A stretch of DNA of 64,000 nt. Origin: Colwellia sp. (lineage in GTDB: Bacteria; Pseudomonadota; Gammaproteobacteria; Enterobacterales; Alteromonadaceae). The position numbers and the translations under genes are program-made. Position 1 is the stretch's first letter; each line of letters begins with the position of its first letter. The stretch is taken from NCBI GenBank assembly GCA_022969175.1, contig JALJPB010000014.1:1-64000 (forward strand). Direction: 5' to 3'. Below are positions 4,044-63,099 of the stretch, piece after piece. Under the pieces are notes generated by a model. The model worked only from the letters and a program-made list of their open reading frames with translations. It ran no database searches and was not told the DNA's origin.

Positions 4044-4655
4044 CTAGTATTGAGCAAACAAAGCCGAAACTGACTTTTTAGGTGTTTTAACTATTTTTTC
4101 AATTAAAGTAAAAGGCACATTATCAAGTTGTGTTTTTTGCTGTATCTCCTCGATAAGCGCAAGCCAAAGTTTTGCTGTAACTTGCGCATCAAACAATGCT
4201 CTATGGTAGGCACCTGCAGTGCTAATGCCTAAATGTTTGATTAAATTCCCAAGTGAATAACTTGGTGCGTCTTGAAATACCCTTCTAGCAAGTAATAATG
4301 AACAACTAAACTTTCCAGAATAACTAGTAGAAATTTGAGTTAGCTCAGCCTCTAAAAAGCGTTTATCAAAAGAGGCGTTGTGGGCTATAAGGTTGTCATC
4401 ACCAATAAAATCAACAAAGTCACTCATTACTTGTGAACATGGAGGAGCTTCTTTAAGCATATAATTACTTATACCGGTATAGTCTTCAATAAAGGAACTT
4501 ACTCTTTTTCCAGGGTTCATCAATTGCTGAAATTCTGCAGTTATTTCACCATTTACTAAGCGAACGGCACCAATTTCGATAGCGCGATCGCCTTGGTTGG
4601 GTGACAGACCCGTAGTCTCAAAATCCAAAATAACTAGCGTATTGGCATTAGACAA
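4044..4655 (-). CDS. 3'-5' exonuclease of the DnaQ-like DEDDh family
   Basis: A 203-residue single-domain exonuclease. The four metal-binding acidic residues and the catalytic His of the DEDDh class can be seen: D11 and E13 in DFETTG, D97 in NASFD, and H151/D156 in HRALFDA. It resembles stand-alone epsilon-like or ribonuclease T-like exonucleases, so it probably degrades single-stranded DNA or RNA ends; the substrate cannot be told from sequence. The start codon appears to be TTG, with GGAAG six bases upstream. It converges with rhlE. It lies 29 bases downstream of the DUF748 gene and could share its transcript. Confidence 0.88.
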   Translation of the reverse strand: MSNANTLVILDFETTGLSPNQGDRAIEIGAVRLVNGEITAEFQQLMNPGKRVSSFIEDYTGISNYMLKEAPPCSQVMSDFVDFIGDDNLIAHNASFDKRFLEAELTQISTSYSGKFSCSLLLARRVFQDAPSYSLGNLIKHLGISTAGAYHRALFDAQVTAKLWLALIEEIQQKTQLDNVPFTLIEKIVKTPKKSVSALFAQY

Positions 4656-38756: not shown

Positions 38757-40853
38757 TCAACGATGAAACATAACTAAATCTTTTCGAGTACTTTGATAGA
38801 TGGAAAAAAGTAAACGGTTATTGTCAAAATCTATATCACTCAAATTCGCTTTAGGTCGAGTCGAAGGTGATATATTCATTTTTGTCAGTGATAGCTTATC
38901 GAGATGGTAAAGCCATATCTGATTTTCAGCAAATAATGATAACTGTCTATCTTTGATAATAAAGCCCGGTGAAAATCTGATGCCAGAAGTTGCTGGTACA
39001 ATACTGTTTTGTTGGTCTTGGTATAGGTGCAGTGTTTTGCTCCAATCAGTATAATAAAGTGATTGGCCATTAAGCTGTGCCCAGTGACTAAAACCTTGGT
39101 AAATATCGCTATGTTCACCGGTGTTAAGATCAAGTAAGACAACTTTTCTTTGCTGTTTTAGTGGGTCAGATGGGATTTTTTCAATAATAGACAATAATAC
39201 CTGTTGCGTATTAACCCATTGATAAACTTCGATAACTTTGAATGGTGTTGGAATGGGATTTGCTTGTCCATCTAAAGTTAACAAATGCAATTCCCCCCTA
39301 ACAGCCAAAGCTAATGATTGACCATCAAGCGACCAAGTGTAAGAGTTAATTCGAGTATTTCTATCGAAATGGCTGAGTTGTTTAAGTTGATTATTGTCAA
39401 CAAACCAAATTTGCTGTTCGCCACTTCTGTTTGAAATAAAACTTATGTTACTGGTACCCGGCTGGTATTTTGCTTGGTAATCTTCCACCGTTGAAGGCTC
39501 TATTGTGCTAATTAGTTGAGCTGAAAGTTCGCTACTGCCACTTTTAGTTAAGGGCGAAGGTTGAAATCGATATTCCTCAATATCTAAATCTACACCACCA
39601 ATAACGGCAATAATTTTTTCACCATCGGGGTGATACATCGGATTGTAAATATCAGCCACTGTTGTTATTGGGTATTCAGTAAAGCTTCCTGCCATGTCTA
39701 TTTCAAATAAGCTCGTTTCAGCCGATGTAATTAGGGTATCTTTCAGTGGATGCCAGATAGGATCCCACCATAAATAATCATTGTGCTCGTCGGGTACTTT
39801 TAACGGTAGATGTTCAATGGTGTTATTTTCGGTATTAAATAGAATTAGAGAGATATTTTGTTTTTGATCATGCACAGTAATCGCGAGCTTTTTATTTCTA
39901 GGGGAATAACTTAAAGCTCGAGGTTGGTACGACTCGTCACTATAAAGTAAGGTTACCAAAGAACTATCGAGTGATAAGGTTTTTACTTTTCCTTGCCTCG
40001 CAAAAGAGTCGATGAATGCTATTTTGTTGTTAGTTAGCCAATTAAGTCCACCATAATTATGTTGCTCGCAGGCTAATAACTCACGAGGTATTTGAGGTTC
40101 AGATTTAGCTAAGATGAAAGAAATTGCGCTGATGTTGCGACACCTCTGTATTGGCTTTGATGATTGGCAGCCGCCAGTTTTAGAAAAAGCCAATTGATTA
40201 CCATCAGGAGACCAAGCTGCTGCACCATAATAACCTGCCGTTTTTGTTAACCGGTACTCTCTATTTTCCGTTAGATCTTTAGCCCAAAGTTGATTTTCAC
40301 AAAGGTTAACATAGCGGTTATAAACGACGTAACGCCCATCAGGTGAAAAACTTGGGTAGTATTCTTTTTCATCGGTAAGGGTTATCGGTGTAAGGCGATC
40401 AATCGGCGGCGATGTTGTTGTCGAAGGCAAAAAATACCATGCCAGCACCAATAGGCTTAGGCAAAGCAAAAATATTTTAATAATCCAGTGACTATTAGCC
40501 TGTTGTTCTGGTATTACTGCTGATTCAACTAGGCTTTCCTCTGGCCACTGTACTTGAGCAATAAGGCTATAACCAATTTTAGGGTGAGTAGCGATCATCT
40601 TCTGCTGCTTAGCATCGTCGCCTAATGCTTTTCGAAGTTGGCCAATACAGCGCTGCACAGCATTAGGCGCAACTACCACATTGGGCCAAACACTTTCAAG
40701 AAGTGCTTCATGGGTGACCACTTCGCCTTGATGTTTAGCAAGAGTCAGTAGAACTTTTAATACCCTAGGTTCAAGCGAGATGATGTCATCTTTGACAATA
40801 ATTTGTGCACGTGAGACATCGACCCTGAAATTGCCAACCCAAAAATCACTCAT
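38757..40853 (-). CDS. CadC-like membrane sensor with TolB-type beta-propeller
   Basis: 698 residues: an OmpR-type winged helix (~1-105; VVTHEALLESVWPNVVV), a single transmembrane helix (~125-145), and a periplasmic region of WD40-like/PD40 beta-propeller repeats (FSPDGRYVVYNR, WSPDGNQLAFSK, YHPDGEKI, WSLDGQSLALA). This is a one-component transmembrane regulator, like CadC but with a propeller as sensor. It is divergent from the two esterase-TPR genes at 41060 and 42768, its likely targets (inferred). The ~200-base space between them holds both promoters. Confidence 0.9.
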   Translation of the reverse strand: MSDFWVGNFRVDVSRAQIIVKDDIISLEPRVLKVLLTLAKHQGEVVTHEALLESVWPNVVVAPNAVQRCIGQLRKALGDDAKQQKMIATHPKIGYSLIAQVQWPEESLVESAVIPEQQANSHWIIKIFLLCLSLLVLAWYFLPSTTTSPPIDRLTPITLTDEKEYYPSFSPDGRYVVYNRYVNLCENQLWAKDLTENREYRLTKTAGYYGAAAWSPDGNQLAFSKTGGCQSSKPIQRCRNISAISFILAKSEPQIPRELLACEQHNYGGLNWLTNNKIAFIDSFARQGKVKTLSLDSSLVTLLYSDESYQPRALSYSPRNKKLAITVHDQKQNISLILFNTENNTIEHLPLKVPDEHNDYLWWDPIWHPLKDTLITSAETSLFEIDMAGSFTEYPITTVADIYNPMYHPDGEKIIAVIGGVDLDIEEYRFQPSPLTKSGSSELSAQLISTIEPSTVEDYQAKYQPGTSNISFISNRSGEQQIWFVDNNQLKQLSHFDRNTRINSYTWSLDGQSLALAVRGELHLLTLDGQANPIPTPFKVIEVYQWVNTQQVLLSIIEKIPSDPLKQQRKVVLLDLNTGEHSDIYQGFSHWAQLNGQSLYYTDWSKTLHLYQDQQNSIVPATSGIRFSPGFIIKDRQLSLFAENQIWLYHLDKLSLTKMNISPSTRPKANLSDIDFDNNRLLFSIYQSTRKDLVMFHR

Positions 40854-46397: not shown

Positions 46398-46883
46398 AAG
46401 ATTATTTTCCTTAACGTTTTGTCAGTAACAAAATTTATTCTTACGGGTAAGTTGGCTTGTATTTGTTACTTATGATTAGCTACTAGCTTGAGCACTGTAA
46501 ACTTTAATTTAAGATAACATCAACATAGTCACTTTACTATTCATCAGCTTGCCTAATTCAACCTTTTGATTAAGGAGTATCAAAGTCACTTTATTATGAC
46601 TTTAGGTAAACAAAATAACGAATCACTGACTTGAAGTTATTAAAATTTATCGAGTCACTCACTAACAAGTGACTAGATAATTCATTTGCTTCAATGTTGA
46701 GTTTTTTAATCCCGCATTTCATTTTAATAAATAACCCGCCTGAAAGAGACAAGGATTACTGTTCTGATTAAAATATGTCAATGGTATACTTTATATCATC
46801 TTAACGAGGGCGTTAGATTGCTGTATACTGCGACTCGAAAAATTCAAAAAAACAATCACAATCATAAAAATGGAATTTAAACC
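46398..46883. other. 486-base intergenic region with a dispersed repeat
   Basis: No coding frame was found. It contains the repeat copy at 46582-46680 (listed separately). The final ~80 bases are AT-rich and carry the presumed promoter of the cadherin-repeat lipoprotein gene. Confidence 0.6.
46582..46680. repeat. Dispersed repeat family B, copy 1
   Basis: Starts with the stem-loop AAAGTCA-N8-TGACTTT and continues through AAAATAACGAATCACTGAC to AAATTTATCGAGTCACT. It matches, with scattered differences, the sequence at 54149-54236. It lies intergenic upstream of the cadherin-repeat lipoprotein gene. Confidence 0.75.
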
Positions 46884-53739: not shown

Positions 53740-54111
53740 ATGAAGCGAATCATGCCAGCACTACTCGGATTTGCTTTCATATGCTGGATTGTCGTTCAAG
53801 CAAACAAAGGGAGTAGCAATATATTTTTTGATATTGTTGCTCTACTTCCTCTTGGTGATAAAGTAGGTCACATGTTGCTTTTTGGTATGTTAAGTACTTT
53901 AACAATCATTGCTTTTAAAGGCAGACAAGTTCGAATTAATGACTATAAGGTGCCTATGGGAGCAATGATAGTCTTGGCATTTGCCTTAATAGAAGAGTTG
54001 AGCCAAATATTTTTTATGCATAGAACTTTTGATTTGATGGATGTTGCAGCTGATATCCTAGGTATTATGATTTCGGTGCTTATTTTTAAAAAATTGCAAT
54101 TAAAACCATAA
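53740..54111 (+). CDS. VanZ-like family membrane protein
   Basis: 123 residues with four transmembrane helices. The family's conserved acid/His pattern is visible: GDKVGHMLLFGML and ALIEELSQIFFMHRTFDLMDVAADILG. VanZ-like proteins have no settled function; the name comes from a teicoplanin-resistance accessory, but it is not evidence of glycopeptide resistance. It begins 6 bases after creD, so it extends the creBCD transcript. Confidence 0.85.
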   Translation: MKRIMPALLGFAFICWIVVQANKGSSNIFFDIVALLPLGDKVGHMLLFGMLSTLTIIAFKGRQVRINDYKVPMGAMIVLAFALIEELSQIFFMHRTFDLMDVAADILGIMISVLIFKKLQLKP

Positions 54112-54240: not shown

Positions 54241-54350
54241 GTTAAACCCATTTGTTTCTTCGGGCTACAGCCATAATTAAAACCTCTCGACTTGGTTGAT
54301 TATTGAACCCTAGTAGAGAGGTATAAATATATTAGTTAACGGTGTGTTTA
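54241..54350. repeat. Dispersed repeat family A, decayed copy
   Basis: Shares TTTGTTTCTTCGGGCTACA, AAAACCTCTCGACTTG-TTGATTATT and the right end TTAACGGTGTGTTTA with the complete copy at 62892-63019. The left terminal repeat is lost. Its right end overlaps the stop codon of the leftward MFS gene (TAA at 54348-54350). Confidence 0.75.
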
Positions 54351-55577
54351 TTCGTTGATTTCTTTGTTGATGGTATGGTCCATGTTTTTGTTAGGACTAA
54401 TATCTGTATTAACAAACTGGCTAGCGACTAGCGAGATTAATGCAAAACCTGCTCCGGCATAAAACACCAGTGATTTATCATAGAGCCAAATTAAACCAAA
54501 ACTTGCCGGAATAACAACGGCGGCAATATGATTAATACTGAAACTAACGCCGGCACTTGAGGCAATATCTTTTGGATCGGCTATTTTTTGAAAGTAGGTC
54601 TTTAAGGCAATGGCCATAGCAAAAAACAAGTGGTCAATCACATAGAGCACAGCAGCAATATTGGCTGACTCCACCAGCGCATAACCAATAAATACGGTAA
54701 TCAAACCAAGATACTCTAATGTTAGCGCTTTGCGTTCACCTACTTTGGCTATCCAAACCCCTATTTTAGGGGCTAAAAAGAAATTGATAACATGATTAAT
54801 CATATACAACAGGGTAATTTGCTGCACGCTATAGCCAAATTTTTCAACCATTAAAAAGCCGGCAAAAACAACAAAAATTTGTCTGCGAGCCCCTGCTAAA
54901 AAGGTAAGAAAGTAGTATAAGCCGTAGCGTTTTCGTAAAATTATCTTTTTATGTTGAGTATGTTCAACGGTAAATTTCGGCATAACAAACGCCAACCACA
55001 ATGTTAGCACTAGCCCTACAAGGCCAAAAAACAAATACATTAGTTGATAGCTGGCAGAAAACACACTGAAACCTAACCAAATAAAGGCATAACAAGTGAG
55101 TGATGCTGCCGATTTAATCGACATCAACTTACCTAACTTCCCTGGCGCTTCTTCTTTATTAAACCACTGTAGGCTTAAAGAAGTATTAATGGTTTCATAA
55201 TAATGAAAACCAATAGACATCAGTACCGTTGTAGCATAAAGGCCATAAATACTGGGAAATAAACCGGTAATCGCTACGCCAATTGATAAAATACACAGCG
55301 ATATTAATGCAAAGGTTTGCTCAGTAAAAACCAGCAAAACAAAAATTGCGGTGAAAGCCAAAAATCCGGGGATTTCTCGTAAAGATTGTAATATGCCAAT
55401 TTCAGCACCGGTAAATGCAGCTTGCTCTATAACAAAATTATTGAGCATTGCCATCCAGCCGGCAAAAGTAGCAGACATAACAATGCTGGCAATAGCTAAA
55501 AAAACAAAAGGTGTATGCCATTTCTTGCCTAGAGCCTGAGATTGTTGCGTGAGTTGTGTTGTTGTCGTCTTTTCCAT
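54348..55577 (-). CDS. Major facilitator superfamily transporter
   Basis: 409 residues with 12 predicted transmembrane helices. The N-terminal half has LQSLREIPGFLAF after helix 2 and the second half repeats the pattern (NHVINFFLAPKIG). The substrate cannot be told from sequence. It is divergent from an AraC-type regulator, which may control it. Its stop codon lies within the edge of a repeat element, so the last residues (MDHTINKEINE) may have been altered by that insertion. Confidence 0.9.
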   Translation of the reverse strand: MEKTTTTQLTQQSQALGKKWHTPFVFLAIASIVMSATFAGWMAMLNNFVIEQAAFTGAEIGILQSLREIPGFLAFTAIFVLLVFTEQTFALISLCILSIGVAITGLFPSIYGLYATTVLMSIGFHYYETINTSLSLQWFNKEEAPGKLGKLMSIKSAASLTCYAFIWLGFSVFSASYQLMYLFFGLVGLVLTLWLAFVMPKFTVEHTQHKKIILRKRYGLYYFLTFLAGARRQIFVVFAGFLMVEKFGYSVQQITLLYMINHVINFFLAPKIGVWIAKVGERKALTLEYLGLITVFIGYALVESANIAAVLYVIDHLFFAMAIALKTYFQKIADPKDIASSAGVSFSINHIAAVVIPASFGLIWLYDKSLVFYAGAGFALISLVASQFVNTDISPNKNMDHTINKEINE

Positions 55578-58311: not shown

Positions 58312-59181
58312 ATGAAACTTAAGTTTTCAAATGCTACTTTAGCCGGTTTAATACTATCTGCTACTTGTTTAGTAAATGTTGCTAATGCAGGAATAATTGT
58401 TACTCAAGAAAGTGACGCGAATATATTGGTTGATAATATTTTAGGCTCAGGTATTACATCTTCAAATATATCTATACTGGGTGCTGATAATGCTTTTGGT
58501 ACATTTACTGGTGGCATCAGCGCAGGTATAGGCATTGAAAGTGGTATTATGCTTTCAACGGGTAATGTTGTCGATGCAGTAGGGCCAAACAACTTAAATG
58601 GAACATCTACAGATCATGATACAGCTGGAAATGCAGCTCTAACTGCTTTAGGCGGTAATCCGACTTTTGATGCAGCAACACTAACGTTTGATTTTATCAG
58701 TGATGGCGGTGACATCTTTTTTAACTATGTATTTGCATCAGAAGAATATAATGAATACGTATACGAAGACGTAAATGATGTTTTTGCATTTTTTTTAGAT
58801 GGCTCAAATATAGCGTTAATTCCGGGTACTGATACAGCCGTTTCTATCGATACCGTCAATGGAGGTAATCCTTTTGGTACTAACGCTCTGAATTCAGAGT
58901 ATTTTAATAATAATTCTTTAGAAGAAGGGCCGTTCTTCGATATAGAATATGACGGTTTCACTAATGTTTTCCAAGCTTCATTTTTAGGTTTAAGTGCAGG
59001 TCAACACAGTATTTCACTTCAAATCGCTGACGGTGGCGACGGCGTTTTCGATTCAACCGTATTTATCGAAGCAAGTAGCTTTAGTGATGACTCAGTGGGC
59101 GTTCCAGAACCATCTACTCTTGCTATTTTTGCATTAGGTATCTTTGGTTTAGCATCTCGTCGGTCGAAGAAAGAATCTTAA
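58312..59181 (+). CDS. PEP-CTERM exported protein with choice-of-anchor L-type domain
   Basis: 289 residues: signal peptide (~1-26), a beta-rich domain starting with early GITSSNISILGADNAFGTFTG and including FVFASEEYNEY-like NYVFASEEYNEYVYED, typical of choice-of-anchor L domains, and a C-terminal sorting signal: PEPST, a hydrophobic helix, then RRSKK. An EpsH/exosortase would cleave or anchor it and link it to exopolysaccharide or biofilm matrix. The exosortase is not in this window. A sigma-54 promoter match precedes it. Confidence 0.93.
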   Translation: MKLKFSNATLAGLILSATCLVNVANAGIIVTQESDANILVDNILGSGITSSNISILGADNAFGTFTGGISAGIGIESGIMLSTGNVVDAVGPNNLNGTSTDHDTAGNAALTALGGNPTFDAATLTFDFISDGGDIFFNYVFASEEYNEYVYEDVNDVFAFFLDGSNIALIPGTDTAVSIDTVNGGNPFGTNALNSEYFNNNSLEEGPFFDIEYDGFTNVFQASFLGLSAGQHSISLQIADGGDGVFDSTVFIEASSFSDDSVGVPEPSTLAIFALGIFGLASRRSKKES

Positions 59182-60054: not shown

Positions 60055-60119
60055 AAACCACCCATTACCCAGAGACATCCATTACTCGAGATATAAATAG
60101 TCAATTAACGGTGGGTGTC
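60055..60119. repeat. Dispersed repeat family A, short decayed copy
   Basis: Its right end (GATATAAATAGTCAATTAACGG then TGGGTGT) matches the right half of the complete copy at 62892-63019, and its left edge AACCACCCATTA resembles the other terminus. The middle is missing. It ends five bases from the stop codon of the leftward serine hydrolase gene. Confidence 0.7.
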
Positions 60120-60123
60120 TTCG

Positions 60124-61530
60124 TTAATTCCTTTCAATTTCTTGTAAAACAAATGATGTGATCATTCTCATTATTTCATCTGAATTATTATCGTTACCTG
60201 ATAAATTCCGAGGATTCGCTGTTGTAACAATAGTTACTGATAAAGATGGAATGTTAATAATATATTGCCCGCCAAAACCAGCTGCTCTATAAGCTTTAAC
60301 CCCATTTAAAGTCCATTTTTTCCATAGATATCCATAAGTATCTTTTGATGAAATTTTACTTAACGGGTGATCGCCTTTAATTGACTGTTTAATCCACTTT
60401 TTGCTAACAATTTGTTTGCCTTTAAACTGTCCACCATTCAAATATAAAGTACCTATTTGCAACATTTCTCTTGGTGTCATAAACATGTCAGACCCACCCA
60501 TATAGGTCCCATCAGGAAATTTTCGCCAGGTAACGCCTTTAATATTTAGAGGATGAAATAGGAATTGATTGGCAAAATCTAATACATCCATCTTGGTAAC
60601 TTTAGCAAGAATAGCTGTTAGTAGGTGTGTTTGAGGAGTTGAATAAGCGTACCGTTCGCCCGGTGAATAGTTTAAAGGCAGCGCCAATATAGCTTTCACC
60701 GTATCTTGTGAATCCCAAATAGGGTTTTGTCCTTCTAGGTAAAAAGCCATTTCATTATAGTTGAATCCCGCACGCATACTTAATAAGTGCCTAACAGTGA
60801 TGTCTTTCAATCGACTGTCCATTTTTGGCGTCACATATCCTGGCAATATATCGACAACTTTATCGTCTAGACTGTTGAGATACTTTTTCTCTAAAGCTAT
60901 GCCTACCAGCATTGAAATAATAGATTTACTAACGGACTTTATATTGGCGACATAATTTTCATCAAGATCATTAAAATAATGCTCTGTAACTAGATAGCCT
61001 TTTTCATACACCAGCAGGGAATTTAGAAAAGGAAGTTGATTTGATATTTTTATTAATCGTGTTGATTTTTCATTATCTATTGCATCAATTGAGGAAATAT
61101 ACTGTGCTAGCTCTTCGTTTACCGGTCTACTGGAATATGCTGAAGGGGAAACTCTAGGAGCTTTTTTGATCCGTTTGAGCTTTACCTTACTAACACGGTC
61201 AGACCAAGTGAACTTTGCATCAATGATCTTTCCTCCTGACTTTAGAACCCCCTCTAACTTTGCGCCAATTGTGGAGAAATTTAATAACACATGATTTGAA
61301 TCTACTGTAATTGAAGCAGGGATTTCCATCCAACCATCATCAGGTGAATCCATAAATGCTATCAATTTAAAATTTTTATCGCGCTTAATTGTTACTACTA
61401 ATCGCTTATTTTCCCCTTGATCTTTAATTGATGTTTGCCATATTCCTTCAATAAGTATATTTGCTTGGCTAGCAACAGATATAAATGAACAAAACAACAA
61501 ACTGTATAGTTGAGTGAGTATTATTTTCAT
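60124..61530 (-). CDS. Serine hydrolase (beta-lactamase/class C fold) with N-terminal accessory domain
   Basis: 468 residues: signal peptide (~1-22), an N-terminal ~110-residue beta-rich domain (GIWQTSIKDQGENKRLVVTIKR), and a penicillin-binding-protein-like domain with SVSK (SxxK), YSTP (YxN-like position) and the FGGQYI region instead of KTG. It is probably a periplasmic esterase/peptidase-like enzyme. ATG 61530 has GAAAGAG upstream; the longer frame would start with TTG. It resembles the 33323 protein only in fold. Confidence 0.86.
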   Translation of the reverse strand: MKIILTQLYSLLFCSFISVASQANILIEGIWQTSIKDQGENKRLVVTIKRDKNFKLIAFMDSPDDGWMEIPASITVDSNHVLLNFSTIGAKLEGVLKSGGKIIDAKFTWSDRVSKVKLKRIKKAPRVSPSAYSSRPVNEELAQYISSIDAIDNEKSTRLIKISNQLPFLNSLLVYEKGYLVTEHYFNDLDENYVANIKSVSKSIISMLVGIALEKKYLNSLDDKVVDILPGYVTPKMDSRLKDITVRHLLSMRAGFNYNEMAFYLEGQNPIWDSQDTVKAILALPLNYSPGERYAYSTPQTHLLTAILAKVTKMDVLDFANQFLFHPLNIKGVTWRKFPDGTYMGGSDMFMTPREMLQIGTLYLNGGQFKGKQIVSKKWIKQSIKGDHPLSKISSKDTYGYLWKKWTLNGVKAYRAAGFGGQYIINIPSLSVTIVTTANPRNLSGNDNNSDEIMRMITSFVLQEIERN

Positions 61531-61678
61531 GAAATTCTCTTTCAAAGTTTACATTATAACTAGCAGCGTAATACCTTAGACACGACACATTTACACGGAT
61601 GTGACGTTATACAGCACTCACTCAATCAGAGGTTTTCTACCTCATTGTGGTTTAAATTTATATTAGTAACTCTTAGGA

Positions 61679-62540: not shown

Positions 62541-62891
62541 GAGGCAAGAATAGAACGATTATTTACGTTTTACAAGGATTGTTTTATGTTAATCGTAAAT
62601 GATTGCGGTTTTGGTCACTTTAAAATGATGAGTTAGATCACTTTGAAATATGACATATACGGCTAAAACCCTAACTTATAGAGAGCTAGGCTAGAAATAA
62701 TCTTAACTCAGAAAAGATGCAGGCAATCAAAGAAATTTATCGTTATTTCCTATAAAAGACCGAATCATTACACCTACATTGTCACAATTAGTTGTAAAGC
62801 TAATATGCGCCGAAAGCCGCCATGGAATGATTAAATTTATGTGTCCTGTATTATCGGAAAGTTGACGTTTAACAAAATAAAAATAACAAAG
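62541..62891. other. Intergenic region before repeat element A
   Basis: About 350 AT-rich bases with no coding frame, tRNA or convincing hairpin. The right edge is the terminal repeat of the family A element at 62892. Confidence 0.5.
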
Positions 62892-63019
62892 ACACCCACC
62901 GTTAATTTTAATTAAACTAACTTGTTTCTTCGGGCTACAACCTTAATAAAAGCCTTTCGACTTGCTTGATTATTTAGCGATTGTAGTCAGATATAAAGAG
63001 ATCAATTAACGGTGGGTGT
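62892..63019. repeat. MITE-like intergenic element, family A, complete copy (128 bp)
   Basis: A perfect 16-bp terminal inverted repeat: ACACCCACCGTTAATT at 62892-62907 and AATTAACGGTGGGTGT at 63004-63019. The internal ~96 bases contain TTGTTTCTTCGGGCTACAA and CTTTCGACTTGCTTGATTA and encode no protein. Related, decayed copies are at 54241-54350 and 60055-60119. The size and termini suit a non-autonomous mobile element or REP-type repeat moved in trans. Confidence 0.8.
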
Positions 63020-63099
63020 ATTCTTTTTTTCTTTCTTCAACAACCTTTTTAATTTTATTACGTATTAATTAACAACTAAGATAATAAGAAGGTAATAAA

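Follow-up and report, generated by a model that had tools for sequence, protein, structure and literature searches.

The short inverted repeats in a 64,000-nt stretch of Colwellia sp. DNA (the window) are very probably, at roughly 0.9, non-autonomous deletion derivatives (MITEs) of a transposon of about 1.27 kb, a member of a family common in marine bacteria. This transposon encodes a Y1/HuH transposase of about 325 aa that fits TnpAY1 subclass 2.3. Alignment identifies the right arm of the elements as a reversed, decayed copy of the transposon's left end with the start codon of the transposase in it, and their terminal motif as the terminal motif of the transposon. The main interest of the remnants lies in what they reveal about the parent; they lead to candidate ends for a subclass whose mode of spread had been open.

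Copies of the short element

The first-pass annotation had described a complete 128-bp copy at 62892-63019 with perfect 16-bp inverted terminal repeats. The inverted repeat is present (62892-62907 and 63004-63019) and is the window's sole perfect one of at least 16 bp within 200 bp; 20 mononucleotide shuffles of the window gave one in total. The 128-bp copy is also real, but it is the core of a 150-bp element and represents a very shrunken two-ended form, as the conserved end extends outwards beyond it (TTAACGGTGGGTGTCTTYGTTAATT; TTAACGGTGGGTGTCTTCGTTAATT). Two supposed shorter relatives are related to it with altered extents. The segment 54241-54350 is not shorter but part of a nearly complete 269-bp copy, in which the outermost 23 bp or so on the left side are unrecognisable, and 60055-60119 corresponds to a solo end whose certain part is 60088-60129. 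The features are as follows.

62881..63030, minus strand (that of the lost transposase gene): 150-bp non-autonomous element, the most shrunken two-ended copy in the window
62881..62905, minus strand: left terminal motif, TTAACGGTGGGTGTCTTTGTTATTT on that strand, two mismatches to the 25-mer; by position, the putative right end of the transposon
62910..63030, minus strand: right arm, a reversed transposon left end with terminal motif, decayed hairpin, and decayed start codon and first codons
54092..54360, minus strand: longest copy in the window, 269 bp, 75% identical over 305 columns to C46:79940-80266 (E 1e-54)
54272..54274, minus strand: fossil transposase start codon (ATG GCT GTA GCC CGA AGA AAC), aligned with the open gene at locus L084 (ATG GCT GTT GCA AGA AAT)
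54282..54322, minus strand: subterminal hairpin ACCTCTC...GAGAGGT, just upstream of the fossil start codon
60088..60129, minus strand: solo left end of the transposon, 91% over 43 columns
69628-69688, 75276-75316, 76879-77033 and 79940-80266: further copies on the same contig (C46), past the window
C7:4379-4507: copy on another contig
C70:4714, C175:18158 and C175:19096: end motifs

The copies exceed chance. BLASTN with the 128-bp sequence finds five places in the element's own genome, with E values from 9e-62 to 2e-5. The terminal 25-mer, with up to three mismatches, occurs ten times in the assembly (4.97 Mb, 85% complete) and the reversed control pattern not once, while the inner 13-mer with one mismatch is unspecific (15 matches against 10 for the control). 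The 327-bp copy at C46:79940-80266, on the same contig outside the window, served as the reference. As a query it gives 12 matches in its own genome, among them 76901-77033, 62881-62916 plus 62910-63026 and several solo ends, and the ends of the 62881-63030 element match its positions 1-36 at 92% and 207-323 at 81%. There is weak similarity to the element at 46578-46650. An end-motif match with two mismatches at 39800 was rejected, its surroundings being without a transposase match or a second end.

The clear copies on C46 share one orientation and cluster within 26 kb (54092-80266), with few in the rest of the assembly. The low copy number and the identity between copies, 75-84% over matches of at least 100 bp, give no sign of recent movement.

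Neighbouring genes run into the elements. The VanZ-like ORF ending at 54111, the MFS ORF ending at 54348 and the serine hydrolase ORF at 60124-61545 (minus strand) have their last codons and stops in element-derived DNA (54092-54111, 54348-54360 and 60124-60129), so the proximity to stop codons proposed at first reading is borne out by the coordinates. These genes and the amidohydrolase gene look unrelated to the element. The window also contains, at 58312-59181, an ORF whose C-terminus resembles a PEP-CTERM sorting signal (VPEPSTLAIFALGIFGLASRR).

The three stops inside element DNA suggest another explanation, in which a once-mobile sequence is now kept for a function in cis, as a protein-binding site, a 3' RNA structure or a terminator; a terminator or RNA-processing role had been suggested at first reading. 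Strong folding of the 62-kb copy (z -5.2 on one strand and -4.9 on the other) also speaks for it. The copies have decayed differently, however: the 62-kb copy has lost hairpin pairs, and folding is weaker in three further copies (z -0.6 to -3.0). We consider this explanation unlikely. Rfam at gathering thresholds gives no match at the locus.

Probable derivation from a transposon

The right arm of the short elements, when reverse-complemented, aligns with the left ends of open transposase genes through the terminal motif, the hairpin and the start codon. When the 327-bp element was searched against 395 genomes (two candidates scored per genome), three matches fell outside its own genome. The match in G362 (E 2.5e-7, 75% over 91 bp) is to the left end of a transposase gene that is open over 324 aa. 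G402 has a related short element of about 0.39 kb (E 2e-14 to the 327-bp element). Codons 26-110 of the transposase lie between the ends of this element, decayed and in antisense, with 34% identity and E values of 8e-9 and 2e-6 in two small databases. The match in G199 covers the hairpin only, and no transposase was found in its 3-kb locus.

The evidence differs between the two arms. Similarity of the left arm to right ends of transposons is confined to the terminal motif and its surroundings; the best match, 24 bp with E 9e-5, lies where a right end is expected at locus L098 (+193 to +216). The side of this arm is therefore assigned by position. At the protein level the trace in the copies of this genome is faint, so the case for fossil coding sequence in them rests on DNA alignment. 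With tblastn at E up to 0.1, transposase residues 1-12 are found in the 77-kb copy only (E 0.02), with no transposase trace in the 54-kb, 80-kb and C7 copies; a match to C46 69.6-75.4 kb has an E value of 0.003 and 26% identity.

In 13 aligned sequences of the left-end hairpin, hand-chosen and mostly from the BLAST listing, with the fold of one of them as the structure counted, 6 of 14 pairs are changed on both sides, a number that 27 of 500 shuffles also reach. In the same sequences 70% of cells are paired, compared with 28-48% when the structure is slid, and none of 500 shuffles reaches the covariation score.

These properties are those of MITEs. The elements are short, non-coding and present in several dispersed copies, and they have a left end in common with an autonomous element and an internal deletion, the longer derivative in G402 still having transposase codons between its ends. 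Sizes run from 1.27 kb through about 0.39 kb in G402 to 327, 269 and 150 bp. Of the two labels offered at first reading, MITE-like mobile family is supported and REP in the defined sense is not.

A simple series of steps could produce the short forms. Both transposon ends would carry the same motif facing outwards, which would account for the perfect inverted repeat. The short repeat TCAATTAAA is found in both arms of the 327-bp form, at positions 28 and 205; a deletion at this repeat may have brought the ends together, and joining the arms there would give a form of about 150 bp. The elements would have spread when an intact transposase recognised their ends in trans. Transposition was probably via a single-strand intermediate, as in IS200/IS605, because the parent transposons show no target duplication.

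A chromosomal integron, with the repeats as attC sites, or some other family of recombination sites would be an extremely improbable source. The motifs at C175:18158 and 19096 are in direct orientation and flank a single 265-aa open frame, and AATTAAC...GTTAATT is akin to inverted core sites. However, the neighbouring genes on C46 are in both orientations, the element ends presumably do not meet the attC consensus, and the arm matches transposon left ends with coding sequence included.

The transposase and the candidate ends of the transposon

The parent transposase was reached through the end motif. Among 395 genomes of the family, five contain this motif with up to two mismatches, one of them being the Colwellia genome. 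The core match in G394 (locus L037) is isolated and in apparent coding sequence, and it is probably due to chance, which leaves four of the five genomes with a convincing end. In G251 the motif adjoins a truncated open frame, read from the DNA as MATPRKQQISLVDTPYYHC... A 37-residue N-terminal query from this peptide was matched in 93 out of 196 family genomes, up to 18 times in one (fragments included), and many of its relatives are in open frames of 310-350 aa. The named hosts among the 80 loci kept include Colwellia, Pseudoalteromonas, Shewanella and Marinomonas.

G251 also has a second short element, in three copies (L034:1501-1607, L038 from 1501, and L039:1501-1626). It has one window-like end (AATTAACAAAGACACCCACCGTTA), a different other end (TGAGTGTC) and an inner terminator-like palindrome (AAAGCCCCGCAAGGGGCTTT in two copies).

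The transposase is predicted to have a Y1/HuH fold. H73, H75 and Y185 are invariant in 30 aligned transposases, with an HuH-Y spacing of about 110. All 30 match NCBIfam REP_Tyr_transpos below its cut-off, and the Pfam and NCBIfam matches of the transposase are under curated cut-offs. The AlphaFold2 model (pLDDT 80) has TnpAREP 4er8 as its best PDB match (E 4.9e-4), the only one with E below 0.001, while a sequence profile search of PDB with the transposase gave nothing better than E 0.6. The RAYT link suspected in the first-pass annotation thus holds in that the parent transposase is of the RAYT kind, and its length of about 325 aa, HuH-Y distance of about 110 and multiple copies in Alteromonadales fit TnpAY1 subclass 2.3. 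Short RAYTs were considered as the source and rejected: PF01797 is found in seven of eight genomes scanned, and the 18-base core, with up to four mismatches, at none of the 19 loci fetched.

A search for a transposase gene with matching terminal sequence had been proposed as a check. The Colwellia genome has one full-length frame of the parent kind (C174:13762-14730, 56% to L084), but this frame carries GCCACCC-type ends, and the cognate parent is therefore missing or unassembled. The 85%-complete assembly yielded no intact parent with window-type ends; the missing one would be a subclass 2.3 gene with GACACCCAYCGTTAATT ends.

The probable ends of the transposon fall within narrow ranges of distance from the gene. 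They were located in 120 full-length copies from 161 loci examined. Each copy had to have an open frame of suitable length, both the HuH and the Y motif, and sequence for 420 nt before and 620 nt after the gene; copies from related genomes are not independent of one another. The motif G[AC]CA[CGT][CT]C (GACACCC or a variant) is found 61-80 nt before the start codon in 87 of the 120 copies, against a background of 0-3 per 20-nt bin beyond -240; tandem ends raise the bins from -220 to -81. After the stop the inverse motif is found at +180 to +199 in 34 copies and at +200 to +219 in 53 (bins counted separately); bins short of +160 contain 0-4 and those past +340 contain 1-7. In 85 copies both ends are detected, and the unit length is 1235-1335 nt with a median of 1269. 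Annotators can place element boundaries from the motif and the unit length.

Within an element the ends tend to vary in concert, as the left and right heptamers are identical in 59 of the 85 elements, compared with at most 35 (mean 24.9) in 2000 shuffles. The end classes are GACACCC, GCCACCC, GACACTC and others. Inverted 14-mers matching at 13 or more positions are found between own ends in 49 of 120 copies, compared with 14 of 356 pairs taken across elements and 2 of 120 windows shifted outwards.

Folding differs between the ends. A hairpin around the end motif was rejected as a general feature, since own and cross pairing are nearly equal, with mean stems of 4.21 vs 4.03 for 101 left ends and 4.16 vs 3.97 for 92 right ends. 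The left end as a whole folds better than the control (mean z -1.13 vs -0.20, with 38% vs 14% below -1.5), and right ends show no excess (mean z -0.18 vs -0.37).

The insertion sites have few marks. The 85 parent elements show no excess of direct repeats that would indicate a target site duplication; Y1 elements are not expected to make one. Their flanks are AT-rich, and no fixed tetranucleotide is obvious by eye. Transposase orientation and local GC skew agree in sign in 8 of 21 copies, which gives no support for a strand bias relative to replication.

An unoccupied site was recovered from locus L236. In P. shioyasakiensis SDCH90 and A316 the unit lies between the isocitrate dehydrogenase and acetolactate synthase genes, and in Pseudoalteromonas sp. 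CF6-2 the same gene pair is about 1.6 kb closer together. The boundary is not fixed to the base because the flanks are only about 80% alike. Listings for four other Pseudoalteromonas loci show no obvious empty site. At L236 two nested kinds of ends surround one transposase gene (2728-2936 and 4199-4260), the outer GACACCCACTTT/AAAGTGGGTGTC and the inner GACACCCAAATT/AATTGGGTGTC, and the left ones are present twice in tandem.

Ends are often repeated in tandem. Within 260 nt outwards, extra motif copies accompany 51 of 101 left and 45 of 92 right ends. In 41 of 75 extra copies compared at the left and 52 of 76 at the right, the 10 nt on the outer side of the motif agree with those of the resident end at 8 positions or more, as against 3.9% and 1.4% between loci. 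Many copies therefore arose in place and took flanking DNA with them. Tandem ends are seen at L082, L092, L094, L095, L194-L198, L201-L203, L208, L211, L221 and L236, often with the same outer flank of about 10 nt. L208, L211 and L221 have 5'-truncated gene copies with the same flank ahead of longer ones. Copying that began at an end and then stalled or slipped may account for these arrangements.

Tandem arrays of ends, present at many transposase loci, could also point to a REP/REPIN family, in which a domesticated single-copy RAYT disperses REPs that are palindromic and paired. The transposase superfamily is the same, and a pair of inverted motifs spaced by about 100 bp and folding into a hairpin resembles a REPIN (PMC3116915). 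Other evidence argues against it, and this explanation is very improbable. The 85%-complete genome has ten end motifs and not hundreds (REPs usually number more than 100), the motif itself is no hairpin at the 101 left and 92 right ends, and the ends are without a GC-rich palindrome of 20-40 bp with a GT(A/G)G foot. The arms hold fossil transposase sequence, and the parent gene is often multicopy with matched IS-like ends and has an unoccupied site of unit length.

A wider and more tentative reading goes beyond the derivation from a transposon. Subclass 2.3 could be an unrecognised IS family with matched ends defined by sequence and not by hairpins. Its movement would be replicative and single-stranded and would often stall, giving tandem ends with the same flank of about 10 nt and 5'-truncated genes, and the window-type MITEs would be by-products. 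We rate this reading somewhat below even odds. The terminal motif, the unit length and the miniature substrates make binding, cleavage and excision directly testable.

Comparison with known systems

A MITE with a Y1 parent is of a known kind, while the ends of this parent and its derivatives appear to be new within the literature covered. No prior description of subclass 2.3 ends was present among the titles and opening lines of abstracts listed for the literature matches, a set that has most subscription journals and ISfinder outside its scope.

The closest system is subclass 2.3 itself. In Quentin et al. 2018 (PMC6006769), this subclass has a median length of 325 aa and an HuH-Y distance of about 110 and is spreading in Alteromonadales. 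According to the same paper, REP-like sequences were sought for it both automatically and by hand, with no success either way, and outside the IS200-like subclass the TnpAY1 subclasses lack an association with typical IS features. The transposase described here agrees with that account in its length of about 325 aa, the distance of about 110 from H73/H75 to Y185, its multiple copies in Alteromonadales and the absence of a hairpin at the end motif. It differs from the account in that its elements have terminal motifs that match and a definable unit length, and that an unoccupied site as well as non-autonomous derivatives are seen.

REPINs and REPs with their RAYTs (PMC3116915 and PMC2817692) are likewise short and non-coding, with inverted ends and a tie to a Y1 transposase. 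In contrast to them, the window family is low in copy number, longer, has a fossil coding part and is without a palindrome with a GT(A/G)G foot. The RAYTs of PMC2817692 are reported to show no multiple copies as a sign of IS-like mobility, whereas the parent gene here is often multicopy.

The IS200/IS605 elements share with the transposon the Y1/HuH fold, the lack of a detected target duplication and, in part of the transposon family, a left-end hairpin. IS200/IS605 elements have subterminal hairpins at both ends and insert 3' to a fixed short target sequence, and their transposases are about 130-150 aa. In contrast, the transposon described here has no right-end hairpin signal, its transposase is 325 aa, a matching inverted terminal motif is present at both ends, and these ends are often tandemly repeated together with their flank.
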